NCBI GenBank assembly: GCA_016867235.1
Contig: VGJY01000010.1
Location: 1 to 48,674, forward strand
Direction: 5' to 3'
DNA from: Candidatus Tanganyikabacteria bacterium
Lineage (GTDB): Bacteria; Cyanobacteriota; Sericytochromatia; S15B-MN24; VGJW01
DNA: 48,674 nucleotides
In this document: positions 32,916-40,893 of the stretch, piece by piece
Layout of the letters: every line of letters starts with the position of its first letter
Numbering within the stretch: the stretch's first letter is position 1
Notes under the pieces: generated by a model
The model's input: the letters and a program-made list of their open reading frames with translations, nothing else
What the model was told of the DNA's origin: nothing
Database searches by the model: none
Position numbers and translations under genes: made by a program

Positions 32916-33728
32916 CTAGCCCACCCACTCCTCGTGCGTGGCCCAGGCGTTGTGGTTGTGGATGGACTCGAAATTCTCGACTTCCAGCGAGAACCACTCG
33001 ATGCCGGACAGGGAGCGGAGGTAGAGGATGCAGTCGCGGAGCACGTCCTCGACGAACTTGGGATTCTCGTAGGCCTGCTCGGTGACGACCTTTTCGTCCT
33101 CCCGCTTGAGTAGCGGATAGACCGGGCAACTGGCCCGGGCCTCCAGGGCCGCGGCGAGATCCTCGATCCAGGTGCACGTGCCGGTCCGGCAGCGCACGCG
33201 GGCGGTGATGAGGCTGCGCTGGTTGTGGGCGCCGTAGCGCGAGATGGCCTTGCTGCAGGGGCAGAGCGTGGTGACCGGGACGGCCACGCCGAGCGTGAAG
33301 CGGTAGGTGCCGTCCAGGGCAATGTCGCCCTCGAAGGAGCAATCCAGGTCGGTGGGCGCCACCGCGCCGGTGGCGGGGGCGGCCTTGTCCACGAAGTACC
33401 GGAAGCGGATGAGCGCGCCGGCCGCCGGCGCGTCGAGGCGGTCGCGGATCTCGCGCACGAGGTCCTCGACGCAGGCTCCCGACATGTTGCGGCGCTGCCA
33501 CTCCGCGAGAATCTCGACGAAGCGGCTCATGTGCGTGCCCTTGAACTCCTTGGGCAATCCCACGGTGAGGGCGCAGGTGGCCTGGACCGCCTGGAAGCCA
33601 CCGCCCCGGGTCTGGACTCGCAAGGGTACCGCGATGTCCTTGACGCCCACGCGTTGCAGTGCGATCTCGCGCGTGTCCGCCGAAGCCTGGATGTCGTGGA
33701 GGCCGATTCGCTCGCTGCCGGCAGGCAT
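32916..33728 (-). CDS. folE2: GTP cyclohydrolase I type B (FolE2)
   Basis: The 270-residue enzyme carries FolE2 signatures: VGVKDIAVPLRVQ, FKGTHMSRFVEIL, VPVTTLCPCSKAISRYGAHN (metal-binding C156 region, H168), CPVYPLLKREDEKVVTEQAY and NFESIHNHNAWA. It makes 7,8-dihydroneopterin triphosphate from GTP for folate or queuosine synthesis, and type IB enzymes can work with metals other than zinc. It starts 6 nt after the peroxiredoxin stop with GGAGG upstream of ATG 33726-33728, so the two form an operon. The zinc-flexible cyclohydrolase lies near the probable zinc-uptake locus. Confidence 0.95.
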   Translation of the reverse strand: MPAGSERIGLHDIQASADTREIALQRVGVKDIAVPLRVQTRGGGFQAVQATCALTVGLPKEFKGTHMSRFVEILAEWQRRNMSGACVEDLVREIRDRLDAPAAGALIRFRYFVDKAAPATGAVAPTDLDCSFEGDIALDGTYRFTLGVAVPVTTLCPCSKAISRYGAHNQRSLITARVRCRTGTCTWIEDLAAALEARASCPVYPLLKREDEKVVTEQAYENPKFVEDVLRDCILYLRSLSGIEWFSLEVENFESIHNHNAWATHEEWVG

Positions 33729-33734
33729 GGTACC

Positions 33735-34175
33735 TCAGCCTCCGACCTGCGCCAGGGCGGAGAGGATGTCGTCGGAACTCGGGGCGCCGACCCTGGCGAA
33801 GCATACTACTCCGCCGGACACGACGAACACGCTGCGCTGGATGCTCGTGCCGTTTTCCTTGAGCGCGCCGTACGCCGCGGCGATCTTCCGGCCAGCGTCC
33901 GACACGAGGCGGAACGGGAAGCCGAAATCGGCCACGTAACTGTCGTGCGCGGCCACCGACGCCGGGTTCACGCCGTAGATGGCGGCCCCGACCTGCTCGT
34001 ACCTGGCGAAGTTGTCACGCAACTCCGAAAGCTGGCGATCTCAGCCGGGGGTGTTGTTACCCGGGTAGAAGACCAAAACGACGCTGCCCGCCCACGCGGC
34101 GGAGTCGACTTTCCCTCCCCCGCTGGTTGCAGCGCTAAACGGGGGTGCCGGCGATCCGGCCTCCAACAATGGCAT
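33735..34175 (-). CDS. bcp: Selenocysteine-containing peroxiredoxin, BCP type (in-frame TGA at 34041-34043)
   Basis: Starting at ATG 34173-34175 (AGAGGAG 5 nt upstream) the frame reads 44 codons to FYPGNNTPG, then TGA, then continues in the same frame DRQLSELRDNFARYEQ... for 101 residues to the TGA at 33735-33737. Read through, it is a 146-residue thioredoxin-fold peroxiredoxin of normal BCP length. The TGA falls exactly on the peroxidatic cysteine (PxxxTxxC: P38, T42, U45); R114 in SIQRSVFVV fits the conserved active-site arginine. No cysteine lies 5 residues later where BCPs keep a resolving one, so it would act as a 1-Sec enzyme using an outside reductant. A SECIS-like hairpin follows the TGA. 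A nonsense mutation is the alternative, but would have to hit this one codon by chance while the rest stayed intact. Confidence 0.82.
34007..34027 (-). promoter_or_regulatory. Candidate bacterial SECIS hairpin
   Basis: On the minus strand, 13 nt after the in-frame TGA, CGGAGTTG pairs with CAACTTCG (8 bp, one G-U) around the loop CGTGA. The apical loop begins about 21 nt after the UGA with G as its second base. Known bacterial SECIS elements have a short upper stem, a G in the first two loop positions and a UGA-to-loop distance of roughly 16-37 nt, so this fits for SelB-directed insertion. Confidence 0.65.
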
Positions 34176-34258
34176 AGCGGCTCCTCTCGGACTCCCGGTC
34201 ATCATAACAGGGTTCGGCCGGCCGATTTTGGGTATGGGAGTACCAGGGGGGACTCCAC

Positions 34259-35488
34259 ATGCTGAAGTCTCGTGTCTTGCTGATGGTAATCGCCGGGGCG
34301 CTCGGAGGTTGTCTGAACCTCCCGAGCGGTAACCGGATCGGGGAGCTGGCCCAGGGGTCGGCGGCCACCGGAGGTACCAACAATGCGGCCGTGACGGTCG
34401 CGATGCAGGGCACCGTGACCGTGCCATCCTCCCTGGTGGCCAACAACGCCAATGCCCTGGTAGGCAACAACGCCAACGCCCTGGTGGCCAACAATGCCAA
34501 CGCCCTGGTAGGCAACAACGCCAACGCCCTGGTAGCTCGGATGCCGGGCTTCGCCGTCATGGCCATCGAGGAGCAGGCGGTCGCCGGGATGCCGGTCGTG
34601 GCCTACAACGCCAAGGGCGAGAAGGTCTCCGACGTGGCCACCACGGACAAGGACGGCAAGTTCGAGCTGACGGTCCCGACAGGCTCCCCCTTGCTGATCG
34701 GTGCGATCGCGCCTGCCGCCAAGCTCCGCCAGCTGGCCATCGGCTATCCGGGGTCCAGCGTGGCGGTCAGCGCCGCCTCGACGTTCGCCGCGTATCGCGT
34801 GTGGAGCGATGATCTCCTCACGAAGGCGGGCAAGGCGGAATTCTCCGACCTCACGCGGGCCTTCGCGTCGGCCTTGAAGGCGGACGATCTCAAGGCCCTT
34901 ACGGGATCCGACGCCGATCTCAAGAGCAAGGCGAACGCCCTGGTCGACCAGAGCCCGGCCGTCAAGGCCGCCGCCGCCAACCTGGTGAGTGCCGCCGGGT
35001 CGGGGTCGAGCACCGGCGGGTCGGGGTCGAGCACCGGCGGGTCGGGATCCGGCGGATCGGGCACGGCGAAGGTCCGGTCGGCCATCACGGTCGAGTCGTG
35101 GCCGATCGCGGCGGCCTTCAAGGATCCGGGCGGCGAGAGCTTCCCGTTCGTGAAGGCCGATCCCGGCAAGCCTCCCCACGTGCACAACTCGCCGGCCATC
35201 AAGTCCGGGGACACCGTCAGGTTCACGATCATCGTGAATGCGGCCGGCACCGCGAATGTTGCCCTCGTCGGCAGCACCGGCTCCGAGGTCGCGAAGGTGA
35301 GCGTCGGAACGGGCTCCGGATCGACCTTGCCGGCCTGCTCCGGCCTCAACACCGCGTCGTGCAAGACGGGCGTCGGCGAGTTCGCGATGTTCAAGCTCAC
35401 CGTGGGCTCCGACGTGGCGAAGGTGGAGTTCTCGTCCGACGCGGCGGCCGTGCTCACGCAGATCGACGTCAATCCGGACGCCAACTGA
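34259..35488 (+). CDS. Lipoprotein with NNANALV octapeptide repeats
   Basis: The 409-residue product has a lipoprotein signal (VIAGALGGC, Cys 18), a linker, four 8-residue repeats with alternating VANNANAL and VGNNANAL (residues 60-91), a CarboxypepD_reg-like unit (TTDKDGKFELTVPTGS), a helical region, a Gly/Ser linker (SGSSTGGSGSSTGGSG) and a C-terminal beta domain with two cysteines (LPACSGLNTASCKTG) that may form a disulphide. This looks like a modular surface or envelope protein with spacer repeats. ATG 34259 follows GGGGGG by ~9 nt. It is divergent from the peroxiredoxin gene. I know no function for it. Confidence 0.78.
   Translation: MLKSRVLLMVIAGALGGCLNLPSGNRIGELAQGSAATGGTNNAAVTVAMQGTVTVPSSLVANNANALVGNNANALVANNANALVGNNANALVARMPGFAVMAIEEQAVAGMPVVAYNAKGEKVSDVATTDKDGKFELTVPTGSPLLIGAIAPAAKLRQLAIGYPGSSVAVSAASTFAAYRVWSDDLLTKAGKAEFSDLTRAFASALKADDLKALTGSDADLKSKANALVDQSPAVKAAAANLVSAAGSGSSTGGSGSSTGGSGSGGSGTAKVRSAITVESWPIAAAFKDPGGESFPFVKADPGKPPHVHNSPAIKSGDTVRFTIIVNAAGTANVALVGSTGSEVAKVSVGTGSGSTLPACSGLNTASCKTGVGEFAMFKLTVGSDVAKVEFSSDAAAVLTQIDVNPDAN
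34436..34534 (+). repeat. In-frame 24-bp tandem repeats (NNANALV)
   Basis: Four 24-bp units plus the start of a fifth encode alternating VANNANAL/VGNNANAL. The alternation gives a 48-bp higher-order period, suggesting a duplication of an already two-unit block. Differences between units are nearly all at third positions (AAT/AAC, GTA/GTG). Confidence 0.9.
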
Positions 35489-36785: not shown

Positions 36786-37721
36786 ATGTTCCGGTTTCTC
36801 TTTCGACTGGTCGCCATCGCCGCCCTCCTGGCGACCGTGCCGGGCGGCACGGCCGCCGCGGCGGGCAAGGTGCAGGTCGTGGCGTCCCTGCCGGATCTGG
36901 CGGCGGTCGCCCGGGAGGTGGGCGGCGACCGCGTGGAGGTGACGGCCCTGGCGGAGGCGACCCAGGATCCGCACCACGTGGACGCTCGCCCGCACCTGAT
37001 CCTGAAGCTCAATCGCGCCGATCTGCTGATCCAGGCCGGGATGGAACTGGAGGTCGGCTGGTTGCCCGTGCTCGTGCGCGGGGCCCGCAATCCCCGTATC
37101 TACGCGGGCGCCGCCGGCCACATGGACGCGTCGGCGGCCATCCGGGCCAAGGACGTCCCGGCGGGCAAGGTCGATCGCACGATGGGGGACGTCCACCCGA
37201 GCGGGAATCCGCACTACATGAGCGATCCGCGCAACGCCGCCGCCATGGCCCGCGCCCTGGCCGACCGGTTGGCGAAACTCGATCCCGGGGATGGCCCGGG
37301 TTACCGGGCCCGCGCCGAGGAATTCGAGCGGCGGGCTCGCGCCGCGGCGGCTCGCGAGGCGGCGCGCTTCGGCGCCCTGCCGGCGGCACGGCGGCGCATC
37401 ATCACCTACGATCGCTCCCTGACCTACCTCGTGGACTGGCTGGGCCTGTCGGCGGTGGGCGAACTCGAGCCCAAGCCGGGCATTCCGCCGAGCCCCGCGC
37501 ACGTTGCGCAGGTGATCGCCACCATCCGTGAGATGGGCGTCCCGGCGATCGTCCAGGAGGCCTACTATCCCCGGCGGACGGCCGAACTCGTGGCGCGGCG
37601 CTCGGGCGCGAAGCTCGTGGCCCTTCCGGGGTTTCCCGACTTCTCCGGCGGCCAGGACTACCTGACGTACATGGGGAAGCTGGCCGATCAGCTCTACGCC
37701 GCCCTGGAGCCCGGGCCGTGA
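36786..37721 (+). CDS. znuA: Metal ABC transporter substrate-binding protein (ZnuA-like)
   Basis: The 311-residue protein has a signal peptide (RLVAIAALLATVPGGTAAAA) and the cluster A-1 binding-protein fold: ASLPDLAAVAREVGG, TQDPHHVDARPHL (first His ligand), DVHPSGNPHYMSDP (further His), ITYDRSLTYLVDWLGL and a C-terminal YYPRRTAELVARR. The lack of a long His-rich loop and the multiple His ligands fit Zn, with Mn/Fe not excluded. It is periplasmic and would deliver metal to ZnuB/ZnuC at 39309-40893. It overlaps the next gene as GTGA. Confidence 0.88.
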   Translation: MFRFLFRLVAIAALLATVPGGTAAAAGKVQVVASLPDLAAVAREVGGDRVEVTALAEATQDPHHVDARPHLILKLNRADLLIQAGMELEVGWLPVLVRGARNPRIYAGAAGHMDASAAIRAKDVPAGKVDRTMGDVHPSGNPHYMSDPRNAAAMARALADRLAKLDPGDGPGYRARAEEFERRARAAAAREAARFGALPAARRRIITYDRSLTYLVDWLGLSAVGELEPKPGIPPSPAHVAQVIATIREMGVPAIVQEAYYPRRTAELVARRSGAKLVALPGFPDFSGGQDYLTYMGKLADQLYAALEPGP

Positions 37722-38596
37722 AGCGGATCGACAGGCGCGGCGGTTCCCGGGCGATCCGGCCCGGGGCATGCGCCCTCTGGCTTTCCTTCACGACCGGTTG
37801 CGCCCTTGGCGCGGGCGGGGCCTTCTCGCGGCTCGCGAGCGAGTCCCGGCTGACGGTCGCCCTGCCGCTGGCCGCCGGGCGACTGGACTCCGCGGGGCGC
37901 TGGGTGACGAACAACGGCTACGCCGTGACACTCGACGGCGGCATTCGCCTCGGGAAGGCCGCGGTGACGCTGGTGGGGGCCGGGGGCGGAACCGCCGCCG
38001 CGGCTTTCGATCCGGCGCGGCCCCCGTCCGGCTACACGTCATGTCATTCGGGGCACTGCCACCGAAGCGACGGCGCACTGGTGCCCTACGCCGAGGTCGC
38101 GGCCGACCTGGCCCGCAAGGCCGGGGGCGTCGCCACGTCCTCGGCGGCCGTGCTGACCTTCGCCCTGGCCGATCTGGCGCTTGCCGCGGGCGGGGAGGCG
38201 TCGCGGTCGGCGGCCGCCTGCGAGCCATGCCTGCTGGGCCGCGGCACGATCGTCGGCGCGGATCTCGCGGTCGCGTCCCTGGCGGCCTCGGGTACGGTCG
38301 AGGCCACGCCTGGGGCACCATCGCCGGGTGCCGCGACGCGCTCCTGGACCCTCGCGGTAGGCGCGTTGCCCTTGCTTCCCGGCACGCTCTCCCGGGCGAT
38401 CGACCGGGACGCGCCGTCCGGCCTGGTGTTCGGGGGCCGACTTGCGCTGAGCGAGAAGCTCTTCGACAATCTGGAGTGGGCGGGCTTCGCCGCGACCGGC
38501 ACCATCGCGATCGACGCGTCGCCGTCGGCCCTCACTTCGATCCGGGCGAACCTGGCCCGCAGCAACTGGCAGGCCGGCTTCCAGGCCGGCAATTGA
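37718..38596 (+). CDS. Lipoprotein with CHSGHCH motif, metal-locus associated
   Basis: The 292-residue product has a lipobox-like SFTTGC (Cys 28) and a beta-rich mature part. C109-H110-S-G-H113-C114-H115 in TSCHSGHCHRSDG is a dense potential metal-binding site, and a CxxC (ACEPC) lies near 168-171. The start GTG (37718) overlaps the znuA stop (GTGA), so it is translated together with the binding protein. I infer a periplasmic metal chaperone or sensor for the transporter. The signal peptide is short on hydrophobic residues, so anchoring is less certain. Confidence 0.7.
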   Translation: MKRIDRRGGSRAIRPGACALWLSFTTGCALGAGGAFSRLASESRLTVALPLAAGRLDSAGRWVTNNGYAVTLDGGIRLGKAAVTLVGAGGGTAAAAFDPARPPSGYTSCHSGHCHRSDGALVPYAEVAADLARKAGGVATSSAAVLTFALADLALAAGGEASRSAAACEPCLLGRGTIVGADLAVASLAASGTVEATPGAPSPGAATRSWTLAVGALPLLPGTLSRAIDRDAPSGLVFGGRLALSEKLFDNLEWAGFAATGTIAIDASPSALTSIRANLARSNWQAGFQAGN

Positions 38597-38607
38597 AGGA
38601 GAAAGCA

Positions 38608-39129
38608 TTGAACAACCCGATCCTCGCCCAGGTCGCGGCTCCCGCACTCGCGGCGGGCGTCCTGGCAGGCTGCAACCTGCTGGCCATGCCCGGCTCCGGC
38701 GGCCCGAACGCCGCGCCCACGCGCACCCCGGACGCTTTCCAGGTGGACGTCTGCGCCGACCTGGCCGCTTCGAACGTGCCGGCGACGGCGGCCGCCGCCA
38801 CTTCGTCGGCGCCGGCCCTCGATACCCGCCACAAGCGCAACCGCATCACGCTGCCGGCGTCGGGCAGCGCTCGCGCGGGGTACGTCAAGCTCAACAGCGA
38901 CAAGGCCGGCGACTGGCAGATCCTGCTCACGCGGGACGTGCCGCTGAAGGTCGGCGACGCGGGCGGCACGTGGGTCCCTCCTGCCGCGTCGCGGTCGGCG
39001 TTCCCCGATTGCCCGGATATCGCGGCGCAGTACACCGTGAACCTGAAGCTGGGCACGTACTACCTGTACCTCGGGCCGACTTCCGAGACGGAAGTGTCGA
39101 TCGTGACGGAAAATGGCGAGGAGGAATGA
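38608..39129 (+). CDS. Small lipoprotein, metal-locus associated
   Basis: From TTG 38608-38610, with AAGGAG at 38596-38601, the product has 173 residues and a lipoprotein signal ending GVLAGC (Cys 21). The mature part has two cysteines (DVCADLA and FPDCPDIA) and a beta-sandwich-like pattern ending LKLGTYYLYLGPTSETEVSI. It follows the CHSGHCH lipoprotein by 11 nt in the same operon. I cannot name the family; context suggests a periplasmic accessory of metal uptake. A longer frame starting upstream reads through the preceding gene out of phase and is not used. Confidence 0.68.
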   Translation: MNNPILAQVAAPALAAGVLAGCNLLAMPGSGGPNAAPTRTPDAFQVDVCADLAASNVPATAAAATSSAPALDTRHKRNRITLPASGSARAGYVKLNSDKAGDWQILLTRDVPLKVGDAGGTWVPPAASRSAFPDCPDIAAQYTVNLKLGTYYLYLGPTSETEVSIVTENGEEE

Positions 39130-39133
39130 TCTG

Positions 39134-39269
39134 CTCTGATAGCGCCGCTTCAGTTGCCTCGCGCCTATCGGACGCAGGCACGGAGGCCTGCGCCACCGAC
39201 GCAACCGGTGGGGCCGGCCTCCGTGCCGGCCGCGATGCCGGAGCGAAGTCATCAGAGCCGCGCTATGAG
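39134..39269. mobile_element. MITE-like repeat with inverted ends and three hairpins (copy 1)
   Basis: The ends CTCTGATAGCGCCGC (39134-39148) and the complement of 39257-39269 (CTCATAGCGCGGC) are near-identical, differing by a TG insertion and one base. Inside are H1 CGCAGGC/GCCTGCG (39173-39192, loop ACGGAG), H2 CCACCG/CGGTGG (39193-39211) and H3 GGCCGGC/GCCGGCC (39212-39231, loop CTCCGT). The H1 and H3 loops are exact complements. A second copy is at 48473-48603. It separates the lipoprotein from znuC in the metal locus and encodes no protein. Confidence 0.75.
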
Positions 39270-39308
39270 AAGTCCCGGGAGCCCGGGGCGCGGCGGGGAC
39301 GGCCCTAG

Positions 39309-40046
39309 ATGACCGAAGCCCTCCTGACCGCGGACGGTCTGCTGATCGGCTTCGGCAAGCGGCCGTTGCTGCCGCCGATCTCGTTCGCGGTGCGGCCGGG
39401 CGAGCTCTGGCTGCTGGTCGGGCGAAACGGATCGGGCAAGTCCACGTTGCTCCGGACGCTGGTGGGCCTCGTGCGGCCCGTCGGCGGCTCGGTTTCGCGG
39501 CCGCCGGGCGATCGCATCGCGTTCTTGCCGCAGCGCCAGATCCGCAACCCCGCCATCCCCCTGCGCAGCGTCGACCTGGTCGAGGAGGGCCTGGAGGCCG
39601 GGTGGTCATTCGTGCGGCCTTTCCGCCGGCGCGAGTCGGCAGCGGCCGCCCTGGCGGCCCTCGCCCGCGTCGAGGCGAGCGATCTGGCGTTCGCGTCGTT
39701 CCTGGATCTCTCGGAAGGGCAGCGGCAGCGAGTCCTGATGGCTCGCGCCTTCGTGGCGCGACCGAGCCTGGTGGTGGCGGACGAGCCGACCGCGGCGATG
39801 GACCTCCTGGCCGAACGGGAGGCACTCGGCCTGCTCGACCGCTCGCGCCGCGAGGCCGGCACGGCGGTGCTGCTGGTCAGCCACCACGTGCCGAGCGCGC
39901 TGGCCGTGGCCGACCGCCTGGTCGTCGTGGACGCCCTCGAACAGACGGTGGTCGTGGGGCCGCGGGCCGAGGTGGCGGCGCACCCGCTCGTCGAGCGCCT
40001 GGTGGCCGAAGCCCGGGGTGCCTGGCCCGGAGGCGTGCATGCCTGA
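39309..40046 (+). CDS. znuC: Metal ABC transporter ATP-binding protein (ZnuC-like)
   Basis: The 245-residue ATPase has Walker A VGRNGSGKST, signature FLDLSEGQRQRVLMARAF (LSEGQ instead of LSGGQ), Walker B SLVVADEPT and H-loop VSHHVPSA. It energises zinc or manganese import together with the permease at 40039. ATG 39309 has no strong Shine-Dalgarno, and the MITE-like repeat lies just upstream, so expression from the znuA promoter must pass through strong hairpins. It overlaps the permease gene by 8 nt. Confidence 0.9.
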   Translation: MTEALLTADGLLIGFGKRPLLPPISFAVRPGELWLLVGRNGSGKSTLLRTLVGLVRPVGGSVSRPPGDRIAFLPQRQIRNPAIPLRSVDLVEEGLEAGWSFVRPFRRRESAAAALAALARVEASDLAFASFLDLSEGQRQRVLMARAFVARPSLVVADEPTAAMDLLAEREALGLLDRSRREAGTAVLLVSHHVPSALAVADRLVVVDALEQTVVVGPRAEVAAHPLVERLVAEARGAWPGGVHA

Positions 40047-40893
40047 GGACGCGTCGCCGCTGGCGATGTTCGTCGCCAACTGGCCGCTGTTTCGAGATCC
40101 CATCCTCGTGGCGTCCATCGCGGGCGGCGTACTGGGCTATCTGGGCGTCTACATCCTCGCCCGGCGCATGGTGTTCGTCTCGGCCGCATTGACGCAGTCG
40201 GCGGGATTCGGCGTGGCGGTGGCGTTCTTGCTGCTCCTGTTCTTCCCCGCGGCGGGCCTGGCGCTCGACCCGCGGATCTGGGCCATCGGCATGGCGCTCG
40301 CGACGGCATGGCTGCTAGGCCGGCCCGCCGCGCAGGGAGCGTCGCGGGAGGGCCTCCTGGCCCTGGCCTATCTCTTTGCGGGCGCATGCGTCCTCGTGAT
40401 GGGCACGCGCTTCCACCAGGAAACGCACGACATCGAGGCCATCCTGTTCGGCACGGGCGTGCTGGTTTCGCCCGACGACCTGGCATTGATCTCGGTGGTC
40501 GGCGGGCTGACGCTCGGGCTGCAGGTCTGGTGGCGTCGCGGCTTCCTGTTCGCGAGCCTGGATCCGGAGGGCGCGGCCGTGCGGGGCCTTCCCGTGCGCT
40601 GGCTGGACGGCCTGCTGATGCTGCAGATCGCGGCGATGGTATCGCTGGGGACACGCGCCCTGGGTGTGTTACCCGTATTCGCCTTCAGCATCCTGCCGGC
40701 GCTCGCCGCCTCCTTGCTGGTGCGAGGCCCGAGGACCGCCCTGGCGGTGGCGACCCTGCTGGGCGTCGCGTGCGGCGCCGGCGGGTACCTGCTGGCGTTC
40801 CTCGCCGAGTTCCCGGTGGGCGCCAGCCAGACCCTCCTGGCGGCCCTGCCGGTGTTCGCGGCACTCGGCCTGCGGCCGCTGCGGCGAGCCTGA
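40039..40893 (+). CDS. znuB: Metal ABC transporter permease (ZnuB-like)
   Basis: The 284-residue membrane protein has 8-9 hydrophobic segments and the ABC-3 permease signatures GVLGYLGVYILARRMVFVSA, LTQSAGFGVAVAF and LGVLPVFAFSILPALAASLL. I use ATG 40039 because GGAGG (40029-40033) precedes it by 5 nt; the frame opens 21 nt earlier inside znuC. It forms the channel through which the metal enters the cytosol. It is the last gene of the locus. Confidence 0.92.
   Translation: MPEDASPLAMFVANWPLFRDPILVASIAGGVLGYLGVYILARRMVFVSAALTQSAGFGVAVAFLLLLFFPAAGLALDPRIWAIGMALATAWLLGRPAAQGASREGLLALAYLFAGACVLVMGTRFHQETHDIEAILFGTGVLVSPDDLALISVVGGLTLGLQVWWRRGFLFASLDPEGAAVRGLPVRWLDGLLMLQIAAMVSLGTRALGVLPVFAFSILPALAASLLVRGPRTALAVATLLGVACGAGGYLLAFLAEFPVGASQTLLAALPVFAALGLRPLRRA

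Follow-up and report, generated by a model that had tools for sequence, protein, structure and literature searches.

Peroxiredoxins (Prx) in which selenocysteine (Sec) takes the place of the peroxidatic cysteine have long been known and are common in bacteria (PMC1088965, PMC5029168), as the first-pass annotation of the DNA analysed here had stated. PrxU of Eubacterium acidaminophilum is such an enzyme (Soehling 2001, as cited in PMC13188914), and the same 2026 review gives PxxxTxxU as the motif of peroxiredoxin selenoproteins. Peroxiredoxins of this TxxU type include 43 Sargasso Sea genes (PMC1088965) and, as read from one published table, 91 genes in 78 organisms (PMC5029168). An earlier survey reported that selenocysteine is absent from Cyanobacteria (PMC1794560), which is repeated in a 2022 review (PMC9312934), and a search of the open-access literature returned no paper on selenocysteine in the class Sericytochromatia. 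The stretch of DNA analysed here (the window; 48,674 nucleotides, contig VGJY01000010.1) belongs to a Candidatus Tanganyikabacteria bacterium of that class and contains a predicted Sec peroxiredoxin gene. The window Prx and the PrxU/TxxU family (COG1225/PF00578) have in common the PxxxTxxU motif, the AhpC/TSA domain, and (predicted) Sec for the peroxidatic Cys, and Cys homologues are widespread in both. In contrast to PrxU, the window Prx falls into a different subfamily, which has the motif VNPAS..H, and comes from the Sericytochromatia lineage. Position +5 of the window Prx is Ser. Membership of the NCBIfam PrxU equivalog (NF040737) was rejected, with a score of 37.6 bits against a cut-off of 270.

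The gene lies at positions 33735 to 34175 of the minus strand and is predicted to encode a Sec-containing PrxQ/BCP-type peroxiredoxin of 146 amino acids, Sec45 included, ending at a terminal TGA. A Shine-Dalgarno-like AGGAG (34181 to 34185, minus strand), read directly from the sequence, is located 5 nt before the ATG. The translation, MPLLEAG...VLVFYPGNNTPG*DRQLSELRDNF...ALAQVGG*, has one internal stop, the TGA of codon 45 (34041 to 34043, minus strand), and the frame continues beyond it for 101 codons to the terminal TGA. Translation and homologue alignment place this TGA, in the context PGNNTPG-U, at the peroxidatic position of PxxxTxxU, where it is predicted to encode Sec. Residues P38 and T42, position 45, and R114 are invariant in 35 of 35 homologue rows, which gives the complete P-xxx-T-xx-C/U motif with its distal Arg, and the AhpC/TSA domain (PF00578) was matched in Pfam with 93.1 bits (cut-off, 26). 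These observations bear out the first-pass annotation, which had described the TGA as the sole interruption, placed it at the peroxidatic Cys, and listed the 101-codon continuation with the three active-site residues. The split that it had expected from automated annotation is also seen, as ORF calling breaks the gene into 34041 to 34427 and 33735 to 34022. The curated NCBIfam models tried score the protein far below their cut-offs, so that a split gene or a pseudogene label is the likely outcome of annotation, which represents an annotation gap.

Homologues were retrieved by scanning a genome collection with peptide patterns flanking codon 45, and 80 named loci were kept; the patterns had X at the Sec position and therefore favoured neither the Cys nor the TGA state. 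Codon 45 is TGC in 52 loci, TGT in 7, and TGA in 21, and no locus has TAA or TAG. This is the interchange between Cys (59 in total) and TGA that the first-pass annotation had suggested looking for at this codon. The two nearest orthologues, from another genus of the same family, share 56 to 57% identity with the window Prx, likewise carry TGA at codon 45, and also start 44 codons before it. Of the remaining TGA rows, 15 form a clade (Bacterium HR33 and 14 rows that bear the label Gemmatimonadota or that of an order or family within it); the others come from two Acidobacteria, one Chloroflexi, and one Zixibacteria. Of the 21 TGA genomes, 20 showed a tRNA-Sec above the cut-off, one of them with just 49 bits; none was found in the other (G100), perhaps an incomplete metagenome-assembled genome. 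The presence of tRNA-Sec was rejected as a discriminator between Sec and Cys genomes, since 13 of 17 Cys genomes carry it too. Two isolated Acidobacteria loci (L108:228-635 and L126:6001-6429) have TGA amid Cys relatives, and the former retains the +5 Cys, which may reflect a recent change from Cys to Sec.

Comparison of the three orthologues gave dN/dS values of 0.19 to 0.29 downstream of the TGA versus 0.30 to 0.43 upstream, which indicates purifying selection on the downstream codons. If the gene were a pseudogene, or if a TGC or TGT had been misread as TGA, no full-length protein would be made; a single substitution is enough to convert either Cys codon to TGA, and the draft genome to which the window contig belongs is fragmented. 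However, the same TGA occurs in two independently assembled species and in 19 further homologues, never as TAA or TAG, and past it dN/dS is low and silent sites are constrained, leaving decay or error a very improbable account. The gene almost certainly encodes an intact peroxide-destroying enzyme in which the "stop" is selenocysteine.

In the 15 Sec genes of the Gemmatimonadota clade, silent-site identity reaches 0.86 in codons +1 to +13 after the TGA compared with 0.49 elsewhere, a peak matched by 4 of 5,000 codon-column shuffles. In the three orthologues, it is 0.82 in codons +1 to +13 versus 0.58 in the rest, with codons +5 to +11 identical in every base, and 755 of 5,000 shuffles reach the peak, so that this result is not significant alone. 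A small excess was also found in 18 Cys homologues (0.58 in codons +1 to +13 versus 0.46). The selenocysteine insertion (SECIS) element of bacteria lies just downstream of the UGA and has a small apical loop with a G. The freeze of silent sites after the TGA is, in these alignments, the pattern expected of a SECIS element in a coding region. Folding and silent-site constraint point to a putative hairpin, CGGAGUUG-CGUGA-CAACUUCG (34007 to 34027, minus strand), with 8 bp and the 5-nt loop CGUGA, in which G is second and which lies 21 nt after the UGA. In thermodynamic folding, the hairpin is no more stable than shuffled sequence in the three orthologues (z of -0.5 to -1.0), and the mean z of the SECIS region in the Gemmatimonadota set is near zero; the structure is therefore a proposal, and folding energy by itself was rejected as evidence for it. 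The UGA might instead serve mainly as a regulated stop, with selenium shortage yielding a 44-amino-acid fragment and read-through being minor and condition dependent. Recoding is in competition with termination by RF2, and a recoding level of 30 to 40% was measured in vivo in another system (PMC4513850), but such a regulated stop, to which we assign little probability, departs from a Sec peroxiredoxin in degree only.

The genome of which the window is contig C10 comprises 6.12 Mb in 514 contigs (rated 100% complete and 2.3% contaminated), and the search for selA, selB, selD, and tRNA-Sec suggested by the first-pass annotation found a complete set. SelB scored 335 bits and has SelB winged-helix domains. 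SelA scored 486 bits, its gene being divided between two contigs; the C-terminal part is on the selB contig, which indicates that a selA-selB pair was cut by the assembly. SelD scored 392 bits and has an in-frame TGA of its own at the motif RTAG-U, and the tRNA-Sec scored 67.5 bits (gathering score, 47) with the anticodon UCA (ARAGORN). From the conservation of the TGA together with this machinery, we infer that UGA-45 is decoded as Sec. Exactly one TGA was found in 3 of the 10 AhpC/TSA genes over the cut-off in this genome and TAA or TAG in none. A genome-wide reassignment of UGA to Cys, Trp, or Gly, in which codon 45 would not be Sec, is the least credible alternative. The frame is open in any code with TGA as a residue, but the gene and its two orthologues terminate in TGA (in the window Prx at a conserved C-terminus), the UCA-anticodon tRNA has the tRNA-Sec structure, and the in-frame TGAs of AhpC/TSA genes are solely at active-site positions. 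With machinery, Cys/TGA interchange, and silent-site constraint all strongly supporting the selenoprotein that had been called likely, we are highly confident that the gene encodes a 1-Sec PrxQ/BCP peroxiredoxin whose UGA-45 would be decoded, under the direction of a downstream RNA element, by the SelB and tRNA-Sec(UCA) that the genome itself encodes.

Other TGA-containing genes were observed in the same genome and class. A second Prx (G000:C28:1686-2102, L010) has TGA at the peroxidatic position (FTPG-U-ERE); its counterpart also has TGA in a genome of the same family (G002, L150) and Cys in G008 and G010. A Prx-like gene (G000:C5:49783-50175, L011) has the active site THT-U-GHC (UxxC) and an N-terminal membrane-anchor-like segment, and this UxxC site resembles those of known Prx-like thiol:disulfide oxidoreductase selenoproteins. 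In selD (G000:C198:3769-4695, L023), the in-frame TGA is near the N terminus (RTAG-U-ASK), and Sec-containing SelD proteins are known. Prx-like genes with a single TGA were also noted in class genomes with tRNA-Sec (G007:C121:8395-8808, G008:C334:16167-16583, and G010:C145:226-636).

Downstream of the Prx gene, folE2 (32916 to 33728, minus strand) encodes the GTP cyclohydrolase FolE2 (PF02649, 285 bits; NF010200, 261.7 bits, cut-off 215) and begins 6 nt past the Prx stop on the same strand. The order of Prx, folE2, and a response regulator is kept in the orthologous loci, with identities of 68 to 72% for folE2 and about 85% for the regulator, which makes this an old arrangement rather than an artefact of binning. 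The suggested operon with folE2 was borne out, the two genes being closely spaced and co-directional, and the pair is conserved across three species from two genera. Between folE2 and the response regulator, the window has a histidine-kinase gene to which the orthologous loci showed no match. FolE2 is a zinc-independent enzyme, and genes for a ZnuA-like binding protein, an ABC ATPase, and a probable permease were seen by eye near folE2 (36786 to 40893, plus strand); zinc-transport genes were rejected as part of the Prx-folE2 unit because the orthologous loci lack a match to the znuA-like gene. A lipoprotein-like ORF (34259 to 35488, plus strand) is oriented divergently from the Prx gene; it contains repeated NNANALVGNNANALVA units and gave no match in Pfam.

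What is less expected is the lineage in which the gene occurs. Among 386 sampled Cyanobacteriota genomes, tRNA-Sec was found in 7, all of them within the window's class (7 of 18 there). In Candidatus Sericytochromatia bacterium isolate LF-bin-423 (G015) of the same class, the Prx is in the Cys form and tRNA-Sec was not detected in the genome. In a Prx tree of 82 rows, which included the C28 paralogue and was built with the trait columns masked, four changes are required to explain the Sec state. A single group with support of 99/95 comprises 18 Sec proteins (3 from the window's family and 15 from the Gemmatimonadota clade). Horizontal transfer between Cyanobacteriota and Gemmatimonadota, in either direction, would fit this grouping. 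The +5 Cys is present in 58 of 59 Cys homologues and absent from 20 of 21 Sec homologues, in addition to the window protein, and both nearest orthologues have no Cys anywhere in the protein. In a formal test, the tree offered 1 to 4 independent contrasts and the association was not significant, and the link between the Sec state and loss of the +5 Cys is a trend among these sequences and not a proven rule. On the whole, it seems probable that Sec decoding in Cyanobacteriota is confined to Sericytochromatia, that the 1-Sec Prx subfamily is common to this lineage and Gemmatimonadota (perhaps by transfer), and that the change from Cys to Sec went with loss of the resolving Cys, from a 2-Cys to a glutathione-peroxidase-like 1-Sec enzyme. 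Sec in this nonphotosynthetic sister class is relevant to the question of whether the trait was lost by photosynthetic cyanobacteria or gained by their relatives.

An AlphaFold2 model of the window Prx (pLDDT 95, pTM 0.90), together with Pfam and a PDB sequence search, places it among the PrxQ/BCP and AhpE peroxiredoxins. A resolving Cys at +5 is typical of many, though not all, PrxQ proteins; position +5 in the window Prx is Ser50, and the protein is therefore filed as PrxQ-like and not as a 2-Cys PrxQ. The absence of this Cys had led the first-pass annotation to suggest a 1-Sec enzyme, and a 1-Sec peroxidase is most likely how the window Prx would work. In the proposed mechanism, an RNA element within the ~35 nt that follow the UGA would direct SelB and tRNA-Sec(UCA) to insert Sec at codon 45. 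Sec45, activated by T42, P38, and R114, would then attack the peroxide and form a selenenic acid. As there is no +5 resolving Cys, reduction of Sec45 would fall to an external thiol, which may be thioredoxin, glutaredoxin, or a small thiol; 1-Cys AhpE and glutathione peroxidases are reduced in this way.

The Cys-containing PrxQ/BCP thiol peroxidases (e.g., PrxQ of Xanthomonas and Burkholderia, Bcp1 of Sulfolobus) are closest in sequence (5enu, E value of 3.6e-17), and Bcp/PrxQ folds lie near the model with Z scores of 22 to 24. The Cys members of the window Prx's own subfamily carry the PrxQ-type resolving Cys at +5, whereas the window Prx has predicted Sec45 for the Cys and Ser50 for the resolving Cys. 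The best VIA-align match is the 1-Cys AhpE of Mycobacterium tuberculosis (Z of 24.7, rmsd of 1.5 over 146 residues), with a Z score that lies within about 1 to 2 of those of Bcp1/PrxQ. AhpE and the window Prx both have a single redox residue and no resolving Cys, but AhpE uses Cys rather than Sec and shares 27% identity. The subfamily is a natural experiment on whether a resolving Cys is still needed once the reactive residue is selenium. Since TxxU peroxiredoxins are familiar, the novelty here lies in the lineage, in the subfamily, and in an apparent connection to the loss of the resolving Cys.
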